Source: Candidatus Agathobaculum intestinipullorum
GTDB lineage: Bacteria > Bacillota > Clostridia > Oscillospirales > Butyricicoccaceae
Length of the DNA: 51,095 nt
Reading direction: 5' to 3'
Assembly: GCA_019117485.1 (NCBI GenBank)
Contig: DWZQ01000036.1
Location: forward strand, 1-51,095
Below the pieces are notes generated by a model. That model did no database searches, had not been told where the DNA came from, and saw only the letters and a list, made by a program, of their open reading frames with translations. Numbering within the stretch: position 1 is the first letter of the stretch; the number at the start of each line of letters is the position of its first letter. Below are positions 1 through 23,930 of the stretch, piece after piece. The translations under genes were made by a program, and so were the position numbers.

Positions 1-660
1 TAAGTGACGTAGTATCCTAGTCAGCGCATACGATTCCCAGGACGGGCCTAAAAATCCGTAGAAGGGCATATCGATGAAGTCTCTGGTGTTTGCTTCTTAC
101 GCCCAGTTTGGGGTGGATGCTGGAGGTTAAGGCTTGCGGGCGCGCTTCAATGGCATGAAGTACCGACCCGCCTGCCGTGGAGACCCGCGACTGTCGGACA
201 CCTATAGCATCCCTTTTGGGGTTGATGGATGTCCAACGGCACGGGATGAAACCTGTATTGCGGTGCGGCGGCAGCCGCGCGGCAAACGCCGGCCGTTTGG
301 CTGGTGGCCCGCATGGATGCCAAAACGCTGTGTGCAGTGTAGCCTGCCTTGCGTGGCCATGGTGGATATCGTATCCGCCCGTGCCTTCCCGGCCAGGAAG
401 GGATGGGAATTGACGGTTGAAACCATGTCTGCAAAAGAGGCTAAGAATCGTGTTGCCTGCAGTGGAAATCACCTAGGCTATTCAGCAATGAGGCAGGCTG
501 AGGATTGCAGTGCGGACTCAGTGGCAATTCGGTCCCGGTGATGGTAACATCCCGGCACGGACTTTAATGGGAAACCCCCACGACGGCGACGCGTGGCAGT
601 CCGCGGGGAAAGCCAACCGAACCTCAAGCCGCAAGATTAACTCGGCCTGCCGTCACTTAC
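1..660 (+). ncRNA. ole: OLE RNA (ornate, large, extremophilic noncoding RNA)
   Basis: No credible protein gene fits here, yet the stretch is rich in nested helices. Bases 1-9 are the exact complement of 651-659 and would close the whole molecule. Other visible pairs are 146-150 with 157-161, 163-167 with 193-197, 384-389 with 396-401, 558-563 with 598-603 and, nested inside the last, 578-582 with 592-596. The length matches OLE RNA (about 600 nt in Bacillus halodurans), and the position directly upstream of oapA and dxs is the defining OLE context. OLE forms a membrane-bound ribonucleoprotein with OapA and has been linked to stress tolerance and magnesium; its molecular role is not settled. 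The identification rests on context, size and structure, because no covariance search could be run. The 5' end may lie a base or two outside the window, and the promoter is not visible. Confidence 0.88.
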
Positions 661-706
661 TTTTTGATAAAGTGGTCATATGACCTTTGGAATAAGGAGC
701 ATTTCT

Positions 707-1297
707 TTGCAAGCATCGGATAAACCGAAAAAGAAAAACCAACCGTCCCAGAAGCCGCGGCTGGTCAACACCAAGTGGGTGGCGACCATCATGCCGGTCA
801 GCTTTGTGCTGTCGGTTGTGATGAGTTACCTGTCTAACGAGGCGCTGGGCAGTTCGGGTACATTTTTGTCCTTTGTGGTGTTGTTTTTCTTCATCGCACT
901 GGGCATCGTATTTGATATGATCGGCATTGCCGCTGCCTCCGCGACGGAAAAGGAATTCCACTCGATGGCGGCGCACCGCGTGCGCGGCGCCAAGGAGGCC
1001 GTTTGGATGACGCGTAATGCGGAAAAGGTTTCCAGCATCTGTAATGACGTGGTCGGCGATATCTGCGGCATCGTGTCCGGTGCGACGGGCGCGCTGATCG
1101 TGGCGAACATCACTGCGGGCATGAACGGTGTGCAGGTGGTGCTGATTTCGCTTTTGATCACCGGCATGATTTCCGCATTGACCATTGGTGGTAAGGCTGC
1201 GGGTAAGGGCGTGGCAATCGCGTTTAGCAGCCGTGTGCTTTCAATCTGCGGGCGAATCCTGAGTGTGTTGCCGGTTTCGCTTGACGGCAAAAAATAG
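707..1297 (+). CDS. oapA: OapA, OLE RNA-associated membrane protein
   Basis: A 196-residue membrane protein lying 47 bases after the OLE RNA. Its N-terminus is very basic (KPKKK near residue 6, further Lys/Arg to about 23), followed by four hydrophobic segments at about 27-45, 52-75, 115-135 and 140-160. The soluble loop carries Arg/Lys residues, and a D-x3-D motif (Asp114, Asp118) lies at the start of the third segment; this motif is known from OapA. OapA binds OLE RNA and anchors it to the membrane. I chose the TTG at 707 because AAGGAG (694-699) sits seven bases upstream; an in-frame ATG at 680 has no ribosome site and would add nine residues. The dxs start follows 31 bases after the stop, so the genes are probably co-transcribed with the RNA. 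Confidence 0.88.
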   Translation: MQASDKPKKKNQPSQKPRLVNTKWVATIMPVSFVLSVVMSYLSNEALGSSGTFLSFVVLFFFIALGIVFDMIGIAAASATEKEFHSMAAHRVRGAKEAVWMTRNAEKVSSICNDVVGDICGIVSGATGALIVANITAGMNGVQVVLISLLITGMISALTIGGKAAGKGVAIAFSSRVLSICGRILSVLPVSLDGKK

Positions 1298-1328
1298 AGA
1301 AAACCGTTTCCGTGGTGGGAATAACGAT

Positions 1329-3200
1329 ATGAAAAAGTACGGGATTCTGGACAATATCACAAGCCCTGCCGATTTGCGCGGTTTATCATACGACACGCTG
1401 GGCGTGTTGTGTGCGGCGCTGCGCGCGTTTATCGTCGATTCGGTTTCGCGCACGGGGGGACATCTGGCCTCGAACCTTGGCGTGGTCGAATTGGCTGTTG
1501 CGCTTGAGCGGGAGTTCGATTCCTCGCGTGACCGCATCATTTATGATGTGGGCCACCAGAGTTATATCCATAAAATTTTGACCGGCCGCCGTGACCGCTT
1601 TGCTACATTGCGGCAGTACGGCGGTCTTTCCGGTTTTATGAAGCCAGAGGAAAGCGTCGCCGACCCTTGTGTGACGGGGCATGCCTCAAATTCGGTATCG
1701 GTTGCGTTGGGCATGGCGCATGCGCGCACGCTCAAGAATCAGAAATACCATGTGGTCGCCGTGATTGGCGACGGCGCGTTGACTGGTGGCATGGCATATG
1801 AGGCGCTTAGCAGTGCAGGCACGTCGGGTGAGCCGCTGCTTGTGGTGCTCAATGACAACAATATGTCCATTGCAAAGAATGTCGGCGGGCTGAGCCGGCA
1901 TTTGTCGCGTCTGCGCGTCAGCCCGCGATACCTGCACGCCAAAGCGCGAGTGAAGGGGCGTCTGGCGCGTATCCCGGGCGGCGATGCAATTTCACGCGCG
2001 ATCTCGCGCTGCAAGGCGCGCCTCAAGCGTCTGCTGCTGCCGACATCGCTGTTTGAACAGATGGGGTTCACCTATCTCGGCCCGGTCGATGGGCATGACC
2101 TCAAAAGTGTGTGCGAGCTGCTTGCGCAGGCCAAAAAGATGAAAAAACCGGTCTTGCTGCATGTAATGACGCAAAAGGGGCGCGGTTATGTGCCAAGCGA
2201 GCGTGAGCCGGAGAAATACCACGGCGTGTCGCCGTTTGACCCGCTGACCGGCGTGTTTCAGGGCAGTAAAAAAGAGGACTTCTCTGCAAGTTTTGGTCGC
2301 GAACTGTGCGCATTTGCAGAAAAGGACGCGCGCATCTGTGCGATCACGGCGGCTATGCCGTCCGGCACTGGACTGACGCGGTTTTTCCAGCGTTTTCCTG
2401 ATCGCTTTTTTGATGTCGGTATCGCCGAGGAGCACGCGGTCGCAATGGCAGCCGGCATGGCGGCACAGGGACTTGTGCCGGTTGTGGCGATGTATTCCAC
2501 CTTTTTGCAGCGCGCTTACGACCAACTGGTACACGATGTGGCAATCGAACATCTTCATGTCGTGTTCTGTGTCGACCGCGCAGGCATTGTCGGTGCGGAC
2601 GGCGCGACACACAACGGTGTGCTGGATGTGGCGTTCCTGCGCTCGATACCGGGCGTCAAGATTTTCTGCCCGTCAAATTTTGCTGAACTGCGCAGCATGA
2701 TGTCGCATGCCCTGTATCATGAGACAGGCCCGGTTGCCATCCGCTATCCACGTGGGGGCGAGGGTGCCTTCCGCACGGATGCGTCGCATGGGGCGTTGGT
2801 CCGGGTGCGTGAGGCAGCCGGATACGAGGTCACATTGGTCACGCACGGTGTGTTGGTCAATGAAGTCATTGGAGCGGCTGAGGTACTCGCGGAAAAGGGT
2901 GTGCGGGCACAAGTTTATAAGGTTAATGAGATTAGTCCGGCGCTTGACGAAGCGCTCGACGAACAGGCGGCAGACTTGTCTGGCCGCGTGGTCGTGGTCG
3001 AAGATGTGGTCGACAGCGGCAGCTTGGGCGAATGGGTCGCGGCGCGTCGTGATGGTCAGACAGAACGGCTGAATACCGGTGACCGTTTTTTGCCGCATGG
3101 CAGCGTGGGCGAGTTATATCACCATTGCGGATTAGATGCGGCAGGCATTGCAGCGTTTGTGATGAACAACCAACAGGGAAAGGAAGACGGCCTTGGCTAA
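1329..3200 (+). CDS. dxs: 1-deoxy-D-xylulose-5-phosphate synthase
   Basis: Makes 1-deoxy-xylulose 5-phosphate from pyruvate and glyceraldehyde 3-phosphate using thiamine diphosphate, the first step of the MEP isoprenoid pathway. The 623 residues match the family length. The cofactor motif runs from GDGALTGG (about residue 146) to NDNNMSI (about 175). The transketolase central domain has the conserved EEHAVAMAAGMA stretch near residue 368, and VDRAGIVGADGATHNG follows near 417. The ATG at 1329 follows a weak GGTGGGA; the upstream in-frame ATG at 1263 lies inside oapA and gives a non-family extension. The 3' end overlaps tlyA by eight bases. Location beside OLE/oapA and upstream of tlyA-nadK-argR-recN is the usual Firmicute arrangement. 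Confidence 0.97.
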   Translation: MKKYGILDNITSPADLRGLSYDTLGVLCAALRAFIVDSVSRTGGHLASNLGVVELAVALEREFDSSRDRIIYDVGHQSYIHKILTGRRDRFATLRQYGGLSGFMKPEESVADPCVTGHASNSVSVALGMAHARTLKNQKYHVVAVIGDGALTGGMAYEALSSAGTSGEPLLVVLNDNNMSIAKNVGGLSRHLSRLRVSPRYLHAKARVKGRLARIPGGDAISRAISRCKARLKRLLLPTSLFEQMGFTYLGPVDGHDLKSVCELLAQAKKMKKPVLLHVMTQKGRGYVPSEREPEKYHGVSPFDPLTGVFQGSKKEDFSASFGRELCAFAEKDARICAITAAMPSGTGLTRFFQRFPDRFFDVGIAEEHAVAMAAGMAAQGLVPVVAMYSTFLQRAYDQLVHDVAIEHLHVVFCVDRAGIVGADGATHNGVLDVAFLRSIPGVKIFCPSNFAELRSMMSHALYHETGPVAIRYPRGGEGAFRTDASHGALVRVREAAGYEVTLVTHGVLVNEVIGAAEVLAEKGVRAQVYKVNEISPALDEALDEQAADLSGRVVVVEDVVDSGSLGEWVAARRDGQTERLNTGDRFLPHGSVGELYHHCGLDAAGIAAFVMNNQQGKEDGLG

Positions 3201-3990
3201 AAAACGTCTGGACGTATTGCTATTTGAAAAGGGGTTGTGCCCCTCGCGTGAACGCGCAAAAACCGCCATTATGGAGGGCATTGTCTACATTGCGGGTCAG
3301 AAGGCAGGCAAGGCGGGCGATATGGTGGATGAAAACGCTGAGCTTGAGGTGCGTGGCAACGAAAACGCGTTTGTATCACGCGGCGGCAAGAAAATTGAAA
3401 AGGCGCTTGATTATTTTAACATTGACCCTGCAGGGCTGGTTGTGATGGATGTCGGCGCATCAACCGGCGGCTTTACCGACTGCCTGTTGCGTCGCGGCGC
3501 GGATTACGTCTATTCCATTGATGTTGGGTATGGACAGCTCGCGTGGAGCTTGCGGCAGGACGCGCGCGTCAAGTGCATGGAGCGCACGAATATCCGCTAT
3601 GTCACGCCTGACATGCTCGACCGCACGCCGTCCCTATGTGTGATTGACGTATCGTTTATCTCGCTGCGGCTGGTGTTGCCGGTCGTTTCCGGCTTGCTGA
3701 CCGAGGATGGGCGTGTTGCCTGTCTGATCAAGCCGCAGTTTGAAGCGGGCAAGGGCAAGGTCGGCAAAAAAGGCGTTGTCCGTGAGCCAGCCATTCACCT
3801 TGAGGTGCTCGAACAGTTTGTTGAAAACGCGCACGCAGCAGGCTTTGCTGTACGCGATGTGACTTTCTCGCCCATCAAAGGGCCGGAGGGCAACATAGAG
3901 TTTCTGGGCTATCTGTTCAAGCAAGGCGAGGACAGCGTACCCGACCTGCGGATGGTCGTGCAGCAGGCACATGACGAATTGGACGGCTGA
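3193..3990 (+). CDS. tlyA: TlyA family rRNA 2'-O-methyltransferase / hemolysin-like
   Basis: A 265-residue protein with an N-terminal S4 RNA-binding domain (about residues 3-60, beginning KKRLDVLLFEKGL) and an FtsJ-like Rossmann methyltransferase domain. The SAM loop is DVGASTGGFTDCLL near residue 85, and the IKPQFEAGK stretch near 180 belongs to the catalytic domain. TlyA proteins methylate ribose 2'-OH groups of 16S and 23S rRNA; the YqxC-type Firmicute homologues are less well studied. The start is a TTG overlapping the dxs stop by eight bases, with AGGAAG upstream, so translation is likely coupled to dxs. nadK starts five bases after the stop. Confidence 0.93.
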   Translation: MAKKRLDVLLFEKGLCPSRERAKTAIMEGIVYIAGQKAGKAGDMVDENAELEVRGNENAFVSRGGKKIEKALDYFNIDPAGLVVMDVGASTGGFTDCLLRRGADYVYSIDVGYGQLAWSLRQDARVKCMERTNIRYVTPDMLDRTPSLCVIDVSFISLRLVLPVVSGLLTEDGRVACLIKPQFEAGKGKVGKKGVVREPAIHLEVLEQFVENAHAAGFAVRDVTFSPIKGPEGNIEFLGYLFKQGEDSVPDLRMVVQQAHDELDG

Positions 3991-3995
3991 GACAG

Positions 3996-4844
3996 ATGAA
4001 AACGATCTTTATCTATCCCAACACGCGCAAGGAAGGCGCACGTGCTGTGTTGCCGCAGGTTTGCGACCGGTTGCGGCGTGAAGGGGTGCGGCTGATGTTG
4101 CCGTTGCAGTTCCGCACGACAACGTCCGGGATTGAGGATGTGGATTACATCGAAACAGGCGACGCGGTGCGTCTGGCGGATCTGGCCGTTGTGCTGGGCG
4201 GGGATGGTACCATGTTGCGTTTGGCGCGTGCCGCCGCGCAGCAGGAGCTGCCGATGCTGGGCATCAATGTCGGCCATGTTGGTTTTATGACTGAACTGGA
4301 ACCGGTCGAATTAAACCAGATGGAAAAGCTATTCGATGGGGATTATACGATCGACAGCCGCATGATGCTGCACGTTGCAGTGCAGCGGCAAGGGCGTGTG
4401 GTATATGAGAACGACGCGCTCAATGATATCGTGCTGGCCAAAGGCACGGCGTTCCGCGTGGTGCGTGTGCGTTTTGCCGCGGATGACGAGCAGGTCACGC
4501 ACTTCAGCGGCGATGGCTTGATTGTCGCCACGCCGACCGGCACAACGGCCTACGGCCTGTCTGCGGGTGGGCCGGTGATTGAGCCGAGTGCGGAGAACAT
4601 AGCGGTTATCCCGATCTGTGCGCATGCGCTGACGGCAAAATCGTTTGTCTTTGCGCCCGAACGACGGATTTCCCTCAGTGCGGCCTGCGAAGGTGGCAGC
4701 GAGGTGTTCCTGTCGGCGGATGGCGGGCAGGGTTTTGCTATCCGGCCGGACGACCGTGTTGAGATCACGCGCTCGCCGTTGCGTACCCATTTGGTGCGCC
4801 TTAAAGGACTAAGTTTTTATCAGATTTTGCAGCAAAAGCTCTGA
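3996..4844 (+). CDS. nadK: NAD kinase
   Basis: Phosphorylates NAD to NADP in the cytoplasm. The 282 residues have the family layout: a Rossmann-like N-terminal domain with the GGDGTMLRLARAA motif at about 68, a conserved NDI motif near 145, and a C-terminal domain with GTTAYGLSAGGP near 182. It lies five bases after tlyA and 13 bases before argR in the compact operon that starts at OLE/oapA. The position between tlyA and argR is the same as in Bacillus. Nothing unusual is seen in length or motifs. Confidence 0.97.
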   Translation: MKTIFIYPNTRKEGARAVLPQVCDRLRREGVRLMLPLQFRTTTSGIEDVDYIETGDAVRLADLAVVLGGDGTMLRLARAAAQQELPMLGINVGHVGFMTELEPVELNQMEKLFDGDYTIDSRMMLHVAVQRQGRVVYENDALNDIVLAKGTAFRVVRVRFAADDEQVTHFSGDGLIVATPTGTTAYGLSAGGPVIEPSAENIAVIPICAHALTAKSFVFAPERRISLSAACEGGSEVFLSADGGQGFAIRPDDRVEITRSPLRTHLVRLKGLSFYQILQQKL

Positions 4845-4857
4845 CAGGGGGCGGAAC

Positions 4858-5313
4858 ATGAAATTTCAACGACAGGCAAAAATCCTTGAACTCATCGACC
4901 GGTTTGAGATCGAAACGCAGGAGGATCTGACCGATCATCTGCGCGCACTGGGCTATAACACCACACAGGCAACGGTCTCACGCGATATCAAGGAATTGCG
5001 GCTGATTAAATCGCTTTCAGCAGAGACCGGCAAATATAAATACACAGCGGCTACTGCGGGCGCGGCGGATAGTTTTACTTCCCGCCTGCGCAACATTTTC
5101 CGTGAGTGCGTCACGGAGATCAACGCTGCGCAGAATATGGTGGTCATCAAAACGCTGCCCGGCCTGGGGCAGGCGGCTGCTATGGCAATTGATGCAATGC
5201 GTGCTTCCGATGTGGTTGGCACGCTGGGCGGCGATGATACGGTGTTTGCCGTTATGCGTGACAACGAGAGTGCTATGCGGTTTTGCCAGCAGGCGCAGGA
5301 TATTTTGAAGTAA
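4858..5313 (+). CDS. argR: Arginine repressor ArgR/AhrC
   Basis: A 151-residue hexameric transcription regulator of arginine metabolism. The N-terminal winged helix (about 1-70) carries the SRDIKELRLIK recognition region. The C-terminal domain (80-151) carries the arginine-binding and oligomerisation motif GTLGGDDTVF at about 121. In the family, arginine acts as corepressor. The gene sits between nadK and recN, as in Bacillus, with a GGGGCGG ribosome site just upstream of the ATG. No arginine biosynthesis gene lies in this window, so its targets are elsewhere. Confidence 0.96.
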   Translation: MKFQRQAKILELIDRFEIETQEDLTDHLRALGYNTTQATVSRDIKELRLIKSLSAETGKYKYTAATAGAADSFTSRLRNIFRECVTEINAAQNMVVIKTLPGLGQAAAMAIDAMRASDVVGTLGGDDTVFAVMRDNESAMRFCQQAQDILK

Positions 5314-5331: not shown

Positions 5332-7011
5332 ATGCTGCAATTACTCCACATTGAAAATATTGCGGTCATCGAGCGGGCGGATATCGAACTGGAAGATGGG
5401 CTGACCGTACTGTCCGGTGAAACCGGCGCAGGTAAGTCGATTGTGATCGACTCGGTTGGCGCGATCCTTGGCCGGCGTGTCAGCCGCGATTTGGTGCGCG
5501 CGGGCGCGGATAAGGGCTTTGTCAGTGCGGTGTTTACAGATCTGTCGGATGGGTTGGTTGCGCTGCTCGAAGAACTTTCGCTGACAGGCGACGAGCCGGA
5601 CACGCTGCATATCCAGCGGCAGATCACGGCAGATGGAAAAAGCTCCTGTCGGGTGAATATGAAGCCGGTGTCGGTATCGGTACTGCGGCAGTTGTCTCCG
5701 TTTCTCATCGATATCCACGGTCAGAACGACGGACAGAAGCTGCTCGATGAGCAGCATCACATCGACTATCTGGATGGTTACGCCGGGCTGGACGGCCTGC
5801 TTGCAAAGTACCGTCCCCGGTATCAGGCGCTGCTCGCCCTGCGGCGTGAGATTACAGCGCTCGAAACCGGTGAGCAGGAGCGTTTGCAGCGCATTGACAT
5901 GCTGTCCTTCCACAAGGAGGAAATCGAGCAGGCGGCGTTGCAGCCGGACGAGGATGAAACGCTTGCCCAGCGCAAAGCGTATTTCGATCACGCAGGCAAG
6001 GTTGCAGGCGCGCTGAACGAGGCGCGGCTGGCGCTGAACGGTGACGACGAGGTGGGCGGCGCGTGCGCGCTGCTCGATCAGGTAGCGGCGGCGCTGGCTG
6101 GACTGCATGAAGTTTCGGAAGCGTTTGACACGATGGCCGAGCAGGCCGAGGAGGTGCGCCTGCTGGCCGCCGATTTGCGAGATAGCGTGGTCAGCCGCAG
6201 CGATAATCTGGACTTTTCCCCGGCGGAGCGGGAGTGGGTCGAGCAGCGGCTTGATCTGATCTACCGCCTCAAACAGAAGTACGGCGGCACGCTCGGGGAG
6301 ATTGCAGCCTATCACGACCGTATTACGGCGGAACTGGAAACGCTGGCCGATTCGGACAACCGGCGTGATGCGTTGCGTGAACAGTATCGTGCGGAACTGG
6401 CAGAAGCCAAGCGTCTGGCAGGCGAGATTACGGCGCGGCGGCGCGCGGCGGCGGCAAAACTGGAGAAGGAAATCGTGCGTGAACTGGCCGGTCTGGACAT
6501 GGACAAGGTGAAAATGCGCGTGGCGGTGCATACGGGTACGAAGCTTGCGGCGCATGGGTTCGATACGGTGACGTTTGAGATTTCGGTCAACCCGGGCGAG
6601 CCGGAAAAACCGCTTTCCAAGGTGGCGTCCGGCGGCGAGCTGAGCCGCATCATGCTGGCGCTTAAAAATGTGCTGACGGCGGGCGAGGAGGTCGGTATGC
6701 TGATCTTTGACGAGATCGACACCGGTGTTTCCGGCCACGCGGCGCAGCAGATTGCGCGCAAACTGTCTGCGATTGCAAAGAAAAAGCAGACGCTTTGCGT
6801 AACACATTTGCCGCAGATTGCGGCGATGGGGGACCACCATCTGCGCATTGCCAAATCGGTACAGGGCGGACGCAGCTTTACCGCGGTCAGCCCGATGGAT
6901 CGGGCGCACCGTGTTGATGAGATCGCGCGGCTGCTGTCCGGTGAGCAGATTTCGGATGCTGCGCGGCGCAATGCAGAGGAACTGCTTGACGCGGCGCGGC
7001 AGGAGGGGTAG
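5332..7011 (+). CDS. recN: DNA repair protein RecN
   Basis: An SMC-like ATPase that acts early in double-strand break repair. The 559 residues show the N-terminal Walker A GETGAGKS at about 30, a central coiled-coil region rich in Glu, Ala, Arg and Gln (about 150-380), the ABC-type signature ASGGELSRI near 431 and Walker B LIFDEIDTG near 458. It starts 18 bases after argR with GGGGAGG upstream and is probably the last gene of the operon. No intrinsic terminator is visible before tyrS, so some read-through into tyrS is possible. Confidence 0.97.
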   Translation: MLQLLHIENIAVIERADIELEDGLTVLSGETGAGKSIVIDSVGAILGRRVSRDLVRAGADKGFVSAVFTDLSDGLVALLEELSLTGDEPDTLHIQRQITADGKSSCRVNMKPVSVSVLRQLSPFLIDIHGQNDGQKLLDEQHHIDYLDGYAGLDGLLAKYRPRYQALLALRREITALETGEQERLQRIDMLSFHKEEIEQAALQPDEDETLAQRKAYFDHAGKVAGALNEARLALNGDDEVGGACALLDQVAAALAGLHEVSEAFDTMAEQAEEVRLLAADLRDSVVSRSDNLDFSPAEREWVEQRLDLIYRLKQKYGGTLGEIAAYHDRITAELETLADSDNRRDALREQYRAELAEAKRLAGEITARRRAAAAKLEKEIVRELAGLDMDKVKMRVAVHTGTKLAAHGFDTVTFEISVNPGEPEKPLSKVASGGELSRIMLALKNVLTAGEEVGMLIFDEIDTGVSGHAAQQIARKLSAIAKKKQTLCVTHLPQIAAMGDHHLRIAKSVQGGRSFTAVSPMDRAHRVDEIARLLSGEQISDAARRNAEELLDAARQEG

Positions 7012-23583: not shown

Positions 23584-23660
23584 GGCCCGGTAGCTCAGTT
23601 GGTTAGAGCGCCAGCCTGTCACGCTGGAGGCCGTGGGTTCAAGTCCCATCCGGGTCGCCA
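23584..23660 (+). tRNA. tRNA-Asp (GTC), CCA encoded
   Basis: The cloverleaf is clear: seven-pair acceptor stem with one G-U, D arm TAGCTCAGTTGGTTAGA, anticodon GTC in a CTGTCAC loop, T loop TTCAAGT and encoded CCA. Confidence 0.96.
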
Positions 23661-23692
23661 TTTCTTCAATCGTTATCGGTTGAAGAAAACTT

Positions 23693-23768
23693 GCCTCTGT
23701 AGCTCAGTCGGTAGAGCAGGGGACTGAAAATCCCCGTGTCGGTGGTTCGATTCCGCCCGGAGGCACCA
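23693..23768 (+). tRNA. tRNA-Phe (GAA), CCA encoded
   Basis: Acceptor GCCTCTG pairs with CGGAGGC, with one G-U pair. Anticodon GAA lies in CTGAAAA, the T loop is TTCGATT and CCA is encoded. Confidence 0.96.
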
Positions 23769-23775
23769 TAAATAT

Positions 23776-23851
23776 GCGGCTGTAGCTCATCTGGTAGAGC
23801 GCCACCTTGCCAAGGTGGAGGTAGCGAGTTCGAGCCTCGTCAGCCGCTCCA
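23776..23851 (+). tRNA. tRNA-Gly (GCC), CCA encoded
   Basis: Acceptor GCGGCTG pairs with CAGCCGC. Anticodon GCC lies in TTGCCAA, the T loop is TTCGAGC and CCA is encoded. Confidence 0.96.
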
Positions 23852-23856
23852 TATTT

Positions 23857-23930
23857 GGTACCATAGCCAAGCGGTAAGGCGTGGGACTGCAACTCCCTGA
23901 TCCCCAGTTCGATTCTGGGTGGTACCTCCA
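23857..23930 (+). tRNA. tRNA-Cys (GCA), CCA encoded
   Basis: The acceptor stem GGTACCA with GGTACC opposite, anticodon GCA in CTGCAAC, T loop TTCGATT and encoded CCA. It is the last tRNA of the cluster. Confidence 0.95.

Follow-up and report, generated by a model that had tools for sequence, protein, structure and literature searches.

Among conserved bacterial RNAs whose biochemical function has yet to be settled, OLE is one of the largest. In the published work, it was counted in 2,822 Bacillota genomes, the gut clades TANB77 and RF39 included, and these two clades are also the source of the variant 1 and variant 2 OLE RNAs (PMC11332333). Processing of the OLE 3' end was reported for Halalkalibacterium halodurans in the same paper. 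A k-turn (PMC9723947) and dimer contacts through the loops L4, L5, L6, and L9 (PMC12286853) have been described, the P3/P3.1 helix has been proposed to cross the membrane, and the J6/7-P8 region has been described as variable (both PMC12265935).

Identity and extent of the OLE RNA gene

The stretch of DNA analysed here, referred to as the window, is the entire 51,095-nucleotide contig C4 of genome G000. An earlier note, made from the sequence, had placed a near-complete OLE RNA gene at its start and proposed a search with the Rfam covariance model. When this search was run with cmscan, RF01071 (cut-off 50 bits) was matched far above its cut-off at window 1-672 on the plus strand, with 444.2 bits and an E-value of 3e-127 over model positions 14-616.

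1..672, plus strand: OLE RNA gene (Rfam span, RF01071); transcription predicted to begin at base 1-3, structure ending at about 659

In the alignment to the model, 228 of the 249 strongly conserved consensus bases (those in upper case) are identical in the window, and 139 of 156 pairs are standard when the Rfam structure is laid on the window. By our own grouping this structure comprises 17 helices, where at least five had been noticed inside the outermost one; the latter, recognised in the note from the exact complement between bases 1-9 and 651-659, is helix P1. The OLE assignment thus stood, and it was the extent that had been understated: the 13 absent model positions sit outside P1, and a promoter-bearing contig of the same genome overlaps window 1-131, so that the copy looks complete rather than near-complete, and the mature RNA, as judged from the sequence, would lie wholly within the window. 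Window 1-672 is a genuine, ordinary, and apparently full-length member of a known RNA family.

A protein-coding reading of region 1-660 could point to frames of 151 aa (minus strand) and 135 aa (plus strand), but the former is open and in frame in only five of 23 same-genus copies and the latter in three. Five frames were considered as candidates for a conserved protein gene and rejected, being intact in only 3 to 6 of the 23 copies, and the two longest had no Pfam match. We regard this reading as having a negligible chance of being right, in keeping with the earlier view that no convincing protein gene fits here.

Helices, covariation, and dimer loops

The alignment held 39 OLE genes, being all those found in 60 genomes with the own genome included, and pairs were counted by script. 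Across these genes, 5323 of 6022 Rfam pair cells are standard (88.4%; shuffle mean 77.1%), and double changes were seen in 107 of the 156 Rfam pairs against a maximum of 81 in 200 shuffles, which form a weak null in that related rows count many times. Two further helices, P1 and P3, both lie outside the Rfam structure of OLE, and P3 is plain in the window.

2..8, plus strand: helix P1, 5' strand (partner 652-658)
652..658, plus strand: helix P1, 3' strand (partner 2-8)
22..36, plus strand: helix P3/P3.1, 5' strand (14 pairs with 445-459)
445..459, plus strand: helix P3/P3.1, 3' strand (partner 22-36)

For the seven inner pairs of P1 (2-8 with 652-658), standard pairing was counted in 251 of 259 cells, and six of the seven show double changes (shuffle mean 3.6, maximum also 6). 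For P3, 491 of 544 cells are standard and all 14 pairs carry double changes (shuffle mean 8.2, maximum 13), a pair count covering all 39 genes; eight of the 39 loci had no anchor and were left out of the P3 folding. With the partners displaced by 1 to 3 columns, the share of cells still able to pair was 25-64% in P1 and 32-45% in P3. Within the genus alone (23 rows), where variation is low, both-side changes occur in one pair of P1 and two of P3, counts that are equalled by shuffles. Taken over the 39 genes, both P1 and P3 covary.

All four loops assigned to dimer contacts in print are kept in the window copy.

48..55, plus strand: A-rich P4 loop (L4), dimer contact; CTAAAAAT in 37 of 39 aligned genes
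101..105, plus strand: P5-region loop (L5, on the second Rfam helix), dimer contact; GCCCA in 36 of 39
150..155, plus strand: P6-region loop (L6), dimer contact; ATGGCA in 36 of 39
391..394, plus strand: P9 kissing-loop palindrome GGCC (L9); the four columns read GGCC in 35 of 39

The P8 arm is longer than in the Rfam model.

266..325, plus strand: P8 extension, 60 nt beyond the Rfam model (insert in the cmscan alignment; the fold includes the known P8 base)

Among the 23 same-genus genes, the P8 stretch measures 49 to 104 nt, and the long arm is a trait of the lineage. The extended hairpins gave z-scores of -5.1 in the size class of the own copy and -6.6 in the larger class (nine genes each, the remaining five same-genus copies being folded singly). 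The known P8 base contributes to these scores, and in the two classes only 2 of 29 and 5 of 32 pairs show double changes, so that the arm is not established as a new helix proven by covariation.

Upstream side and probable promoter

Contig C3 of the same genome, reached via the IspA of a relative, ends in 131 bases identical to window 1-131. Its order is ispA (PF00348), the stop codon, 23 nt, TTGAAA-N17-TAAAAT with a TG before the second box, and then OLE; a promoter search in this upstream stretch returned one site (shuffle mean 0.2). Transcription initiation is expected some 7 nt after a -10 box, and window base 1 lies 7 nt past this one, so that the RNA should lie entirely inside the window; from the sequence, the transcript start is predicted at window base 1-3.

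Upstream stretches of at least 120 nt were available for 20 of the 23 same-genus OLE genes. In 18 of these 20, the promoter stands at a fixed distance as TTGAAT or TTGAAA, 17 nt, and a -10 box; the same promoter is absent from the other two (G011 and G024). The information per column reaches 1.7-2.0 bits in the -35 box and 1.5-2.0 bits in TGTG, as against 0.1-0.7 bits in the first twelve spacer columns, and an A/T-rich block 5' of the -35 box is conserved too. Because a 9-of-12 site is reached by approximately 8-22% of shuffled upstream stretches, single scores carry little weight, and the case for the promoter is built on its conservation and its position. G024 (locus L010) has a gene other than ispA upstream of OLE and a TATAAT further out. 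At 12 loci from other genera, a site stood at the usual distance in six (G070, G072, G075, G068, G111, and G067) and at a different distance in G078, with none by the rule used in G066, G074, G087, G086, and G037; given this mixed outcome (6 of 12), other-genus and detached OLE loci were not taken as general support for the promoter. No statement on an OLE promoter was found in the excerpts of PMC10898510 and PMC12054373, nor did literature searches return a title on one, the 2006 discovery paper lying outside this comparison.

Several assemblies break at or inside OLE, as seen in the contig ends of G006, G012, and G021 and in the exact 131-base overlap of two contigs in the own genome. These breaks were probably caused by conserved sequence confusing the assembly of mixed samples.

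Downstream genes

The oapA-dxs context that had been recognised from the sequence is borne out, with oapA and then dxs lying directly 3' of OLE.

694..699, plus strand: likely ribosome-binding site of oapA (AAGGAG, 7 nt before TTG 707)
707..1297, plus strand: oapA, OLE-associated membrane protein (TTG start most likely), between OLE and dxs
1329..3200, plus strand: dxs (TIGR00204, 685 bits)
3193..3990, plus strand: tlyA family gene (TIGR00478, 276 bits)
3996..4844, plus strand: NAD kinase (PF20143, PF01513)
4858..5313, plus strand: argR (PF02863, PF01316)
5332..7011, plus strand: recN (TIGR00634, 518.5 bits)

Further along the window, a cluster of four tRNA genes occupies 23584-23927. The name oapA is a putative one, given from the place of the gene, a weak CNNM match under the Pfam cut-off, and co-occurrence with OLE, in a comparison made without the H. 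halodurans OapA; no NCBIfam match was found for the protein.

No terminator-like site was found in window 560-1400, consistent with the report of 3'-end processing in H. halodurans (excerpts of PMC11332333). This absence, together with the short gap of about 48 nt between the OLE end and the oapA start, would also suit an OLE working chiefly in cis, as a long leader controlling oapA-dxs rather than as a trans-acting particle. However, oapA is not directly 3' of OLE in G072, G074, G075, and G078, mfd follows it in G037, and the published binding partners and membrane location favour a role in trans (excerpts of PMC12265935). A leader function is accordingly considered improbable, and a trans-acting OLE particle is preferred.

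Distribution and co-occurrence with OapA

The closest named relatives of the OapA protein are from Agathobaculum, with identity of up to 92%, which bears out the proposed gut Clostridia-type host as an Agathobaculum-like genome. The suggestion that such a host is unusual for OLE does not survive the counts: OLE is present in 39 of 60 genomes examined, in 23 of 25 genomes of the genus, and in 50 of 87 of the family, besides the Bacillota of the published survey (PMC11332333, in excerpt). With such shares of the genus and family carrying OLE, its presence in this gut genus is the rule. OLE was not found in the same-genus genomes G009 (81% complete) and G017 (78% complete), laxer filters included. 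A literature search returned no paper joining "OLE RNA" with "Agathobaculum", or "Ornate Large Extremophilic" with "Butyricicoccus".

Among the 87 family genomes, OLE and OapA are concordant in 82, occurring together in 49 and both absent from 33; the OapA family is present in 49 of the 50 OLE bearers. The sole genome with OLE only is G034, whose contig ends 81 nt past OLE; OapA only was recorded in four (G033, G077, G083, and G109). In G083 and G109, OapA lies near or at the contig start, and a similarly placed named contig (L075) retains the last 87 nt of OLE. G033 (99% complete; L047 2152-2808) and G077 (65% complete; L095) have oapA-dxs and returned no OLE in genome searches, nor was any found directly 5' of oapA over about 2.1 kb and 0.9 kb, respectively (L047 1,000-2,400 being searched with E up to 1). 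Both belong to one genus whose sister genomes carry OLE apart from oapA, and therefore their OLE may lie in an assembly gap. With contig ends on the one hand and detached OLE in sisters on the other, OapA without OLE is not established as a firm exception. L069 was dismissed as a further such case, OLE being elsewhere in its genome, and G066 was dismissed as a detached OLE, its OLE and oapA each lying near a contig end.

In one sister genus, oapA is not directly 3' of OLE at L091 (G072), L092/L097 (G074), L093 (G075), L094 (G078), and L090/L098 (G070); in G074 the two are about 20 kb apart on one contig. In G037 (L048 and L049), mfd follows OLE, and oapA-dxs is on another contig that ends about 0.2 kb upstream of oapA.

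Partner proteins and the MpfA-type transporter

Genes for OapB, OapC, and bS21 are a common, non-universal criterion for OLE hosts, and the own genome encodes all three. OapB (93 aa; phmmer to PDB 7k9b, E 5e-7), which was missed by the KOW family search and by Pfam, lies between map and infA; OapC/YbxF (87 aa; E 1e-10 to YbxF structures) lies between rpoC and rpsL; and bS21 was found with an E-value of 4e-21. A second L7Ae-type protein adjoins nusA-like genes. The neighbours are what we take to be map, infA, rpoC, rpsL, and nusA, as read off the frames.

The own genome also holds a transporter gene of the MpfA type.

L046 419-1675, minus strand: MpfA-type transporter of the own genome (CNNM, two CBS stretches, CorC_HlyC)

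Counting as MpfA-type any CNNM match above the cut-off in frames of at least 340 aa, with the domain make-up checked in the own protein only, such proteins occur in 14 of 23 OLE-bearing same-genus genomes, in none of 16 OLE-bearing genomes of other genera, and in 17 of 21 genomes lacking OLE. The published anticorrelation of OLE and MpfA is visible in this sample, with the genus as its exception; one MpfA-type copy is allowed in OLE bearers according to the excerpts of PMC11332333. The MpfA-type protein may do part of the job of OLE.

It could be supposed from the 14 of 23 against 0 of 16 that OLE is here a decaying relic, tolerated since an MpfA-type transporter took over. Against such decay stand the 139 of 156 standard pairs, the 228 of 249 conserved bases, and the intact dimer loops, as well as the conserved promoter and the presence of OapA, OapB, and OapC; we give a relic even less credence than the cis-acting leader. 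The account that we consider very probably right as a whole is that of an Agathobaculum-like gut bacterium with a functional OLE RNA gene of full length, which has its own promoter and whose RNA forms an OapA-held stress particle.

Proposed mode of action

The sequence contains a structured RNA gene, its context, the partner genes, and a conserved promoter-like sequence. By analogy with H. halodurans work and Clostridium cryo-EM, a sigma-A-type promoter just past ispA would drive transcription from helix P1, reading into oapA and dxs, and the 3' end of OLE would probably arise by processing. The RNA would then fold and dimerise via its L4, L5/L6, and L9 loops, OapA would hold it at the membrane, and OapB, OapC, and bS21 would bind it. 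The resulting particle would most likely aid in coping with stresses such as high Mg2+, cold, alcohols, or carbon stress.

A more specific proposal is put forward tentatively, at somewhat short of even chances: that the Agathobaculum OLE is a self-standing gene whose own extended -10 promoter fires at P1, its 5' end being the point of initiation rather than a cut made in an operon transcript, and that, with an enlarged P8 and an MpfA-type transporter lasting in many of these genomes, it does something MpfA cannot replace. If this is true, OLE would have a role in these gut bacteria for which MpfA is no substitute. Since named Agathobaculum isolates carry OLE, with a predicted start at P1, and many genomes of the genus have an MpfA-type gene too, the functions common to OLE and MpfA could be explored in Agathobaculum.

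Comparison with known systems

MpfA-type CNNM transporters share with OapA a weak CNNM similarity and an overlapping function proposed in print, and differ from OLE/OapA in having CBS and CorC_HlyC domains and no RNA. The variant 1 and variant 2 OLE RNAs (PMC11332333, in excerpt) have gut-dwelling Bacillota hosts and core bases in common with the window copy, whereas their P7/P8 are short or absent and OapB and OapC are for the most part missing from their hosts. The window copy has a full P7, P8, and P9, and its genome encodes both proteins; assignment to the variant classes was rejected on the helices at 184-245 and 253-337, with P8 enlarged instead of shortened or missing. With the full-length OLE of H. 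halodurans and Clostridium acetobutylicum (RF01071), the window copy shares sequence, structure, dimer loops, the adjoining oapA, the dxs and ispA neighbours, and the OapB, OapC, and bS21 genes in the genome. From these it differs in its longer P8 arm and in the presence of an MpfA-type gene, and where the H. halodurans OLE cluster is described as one polycistronic transcript (excerpts of PMC12265935), a promoter-like site stands here directly before P1.
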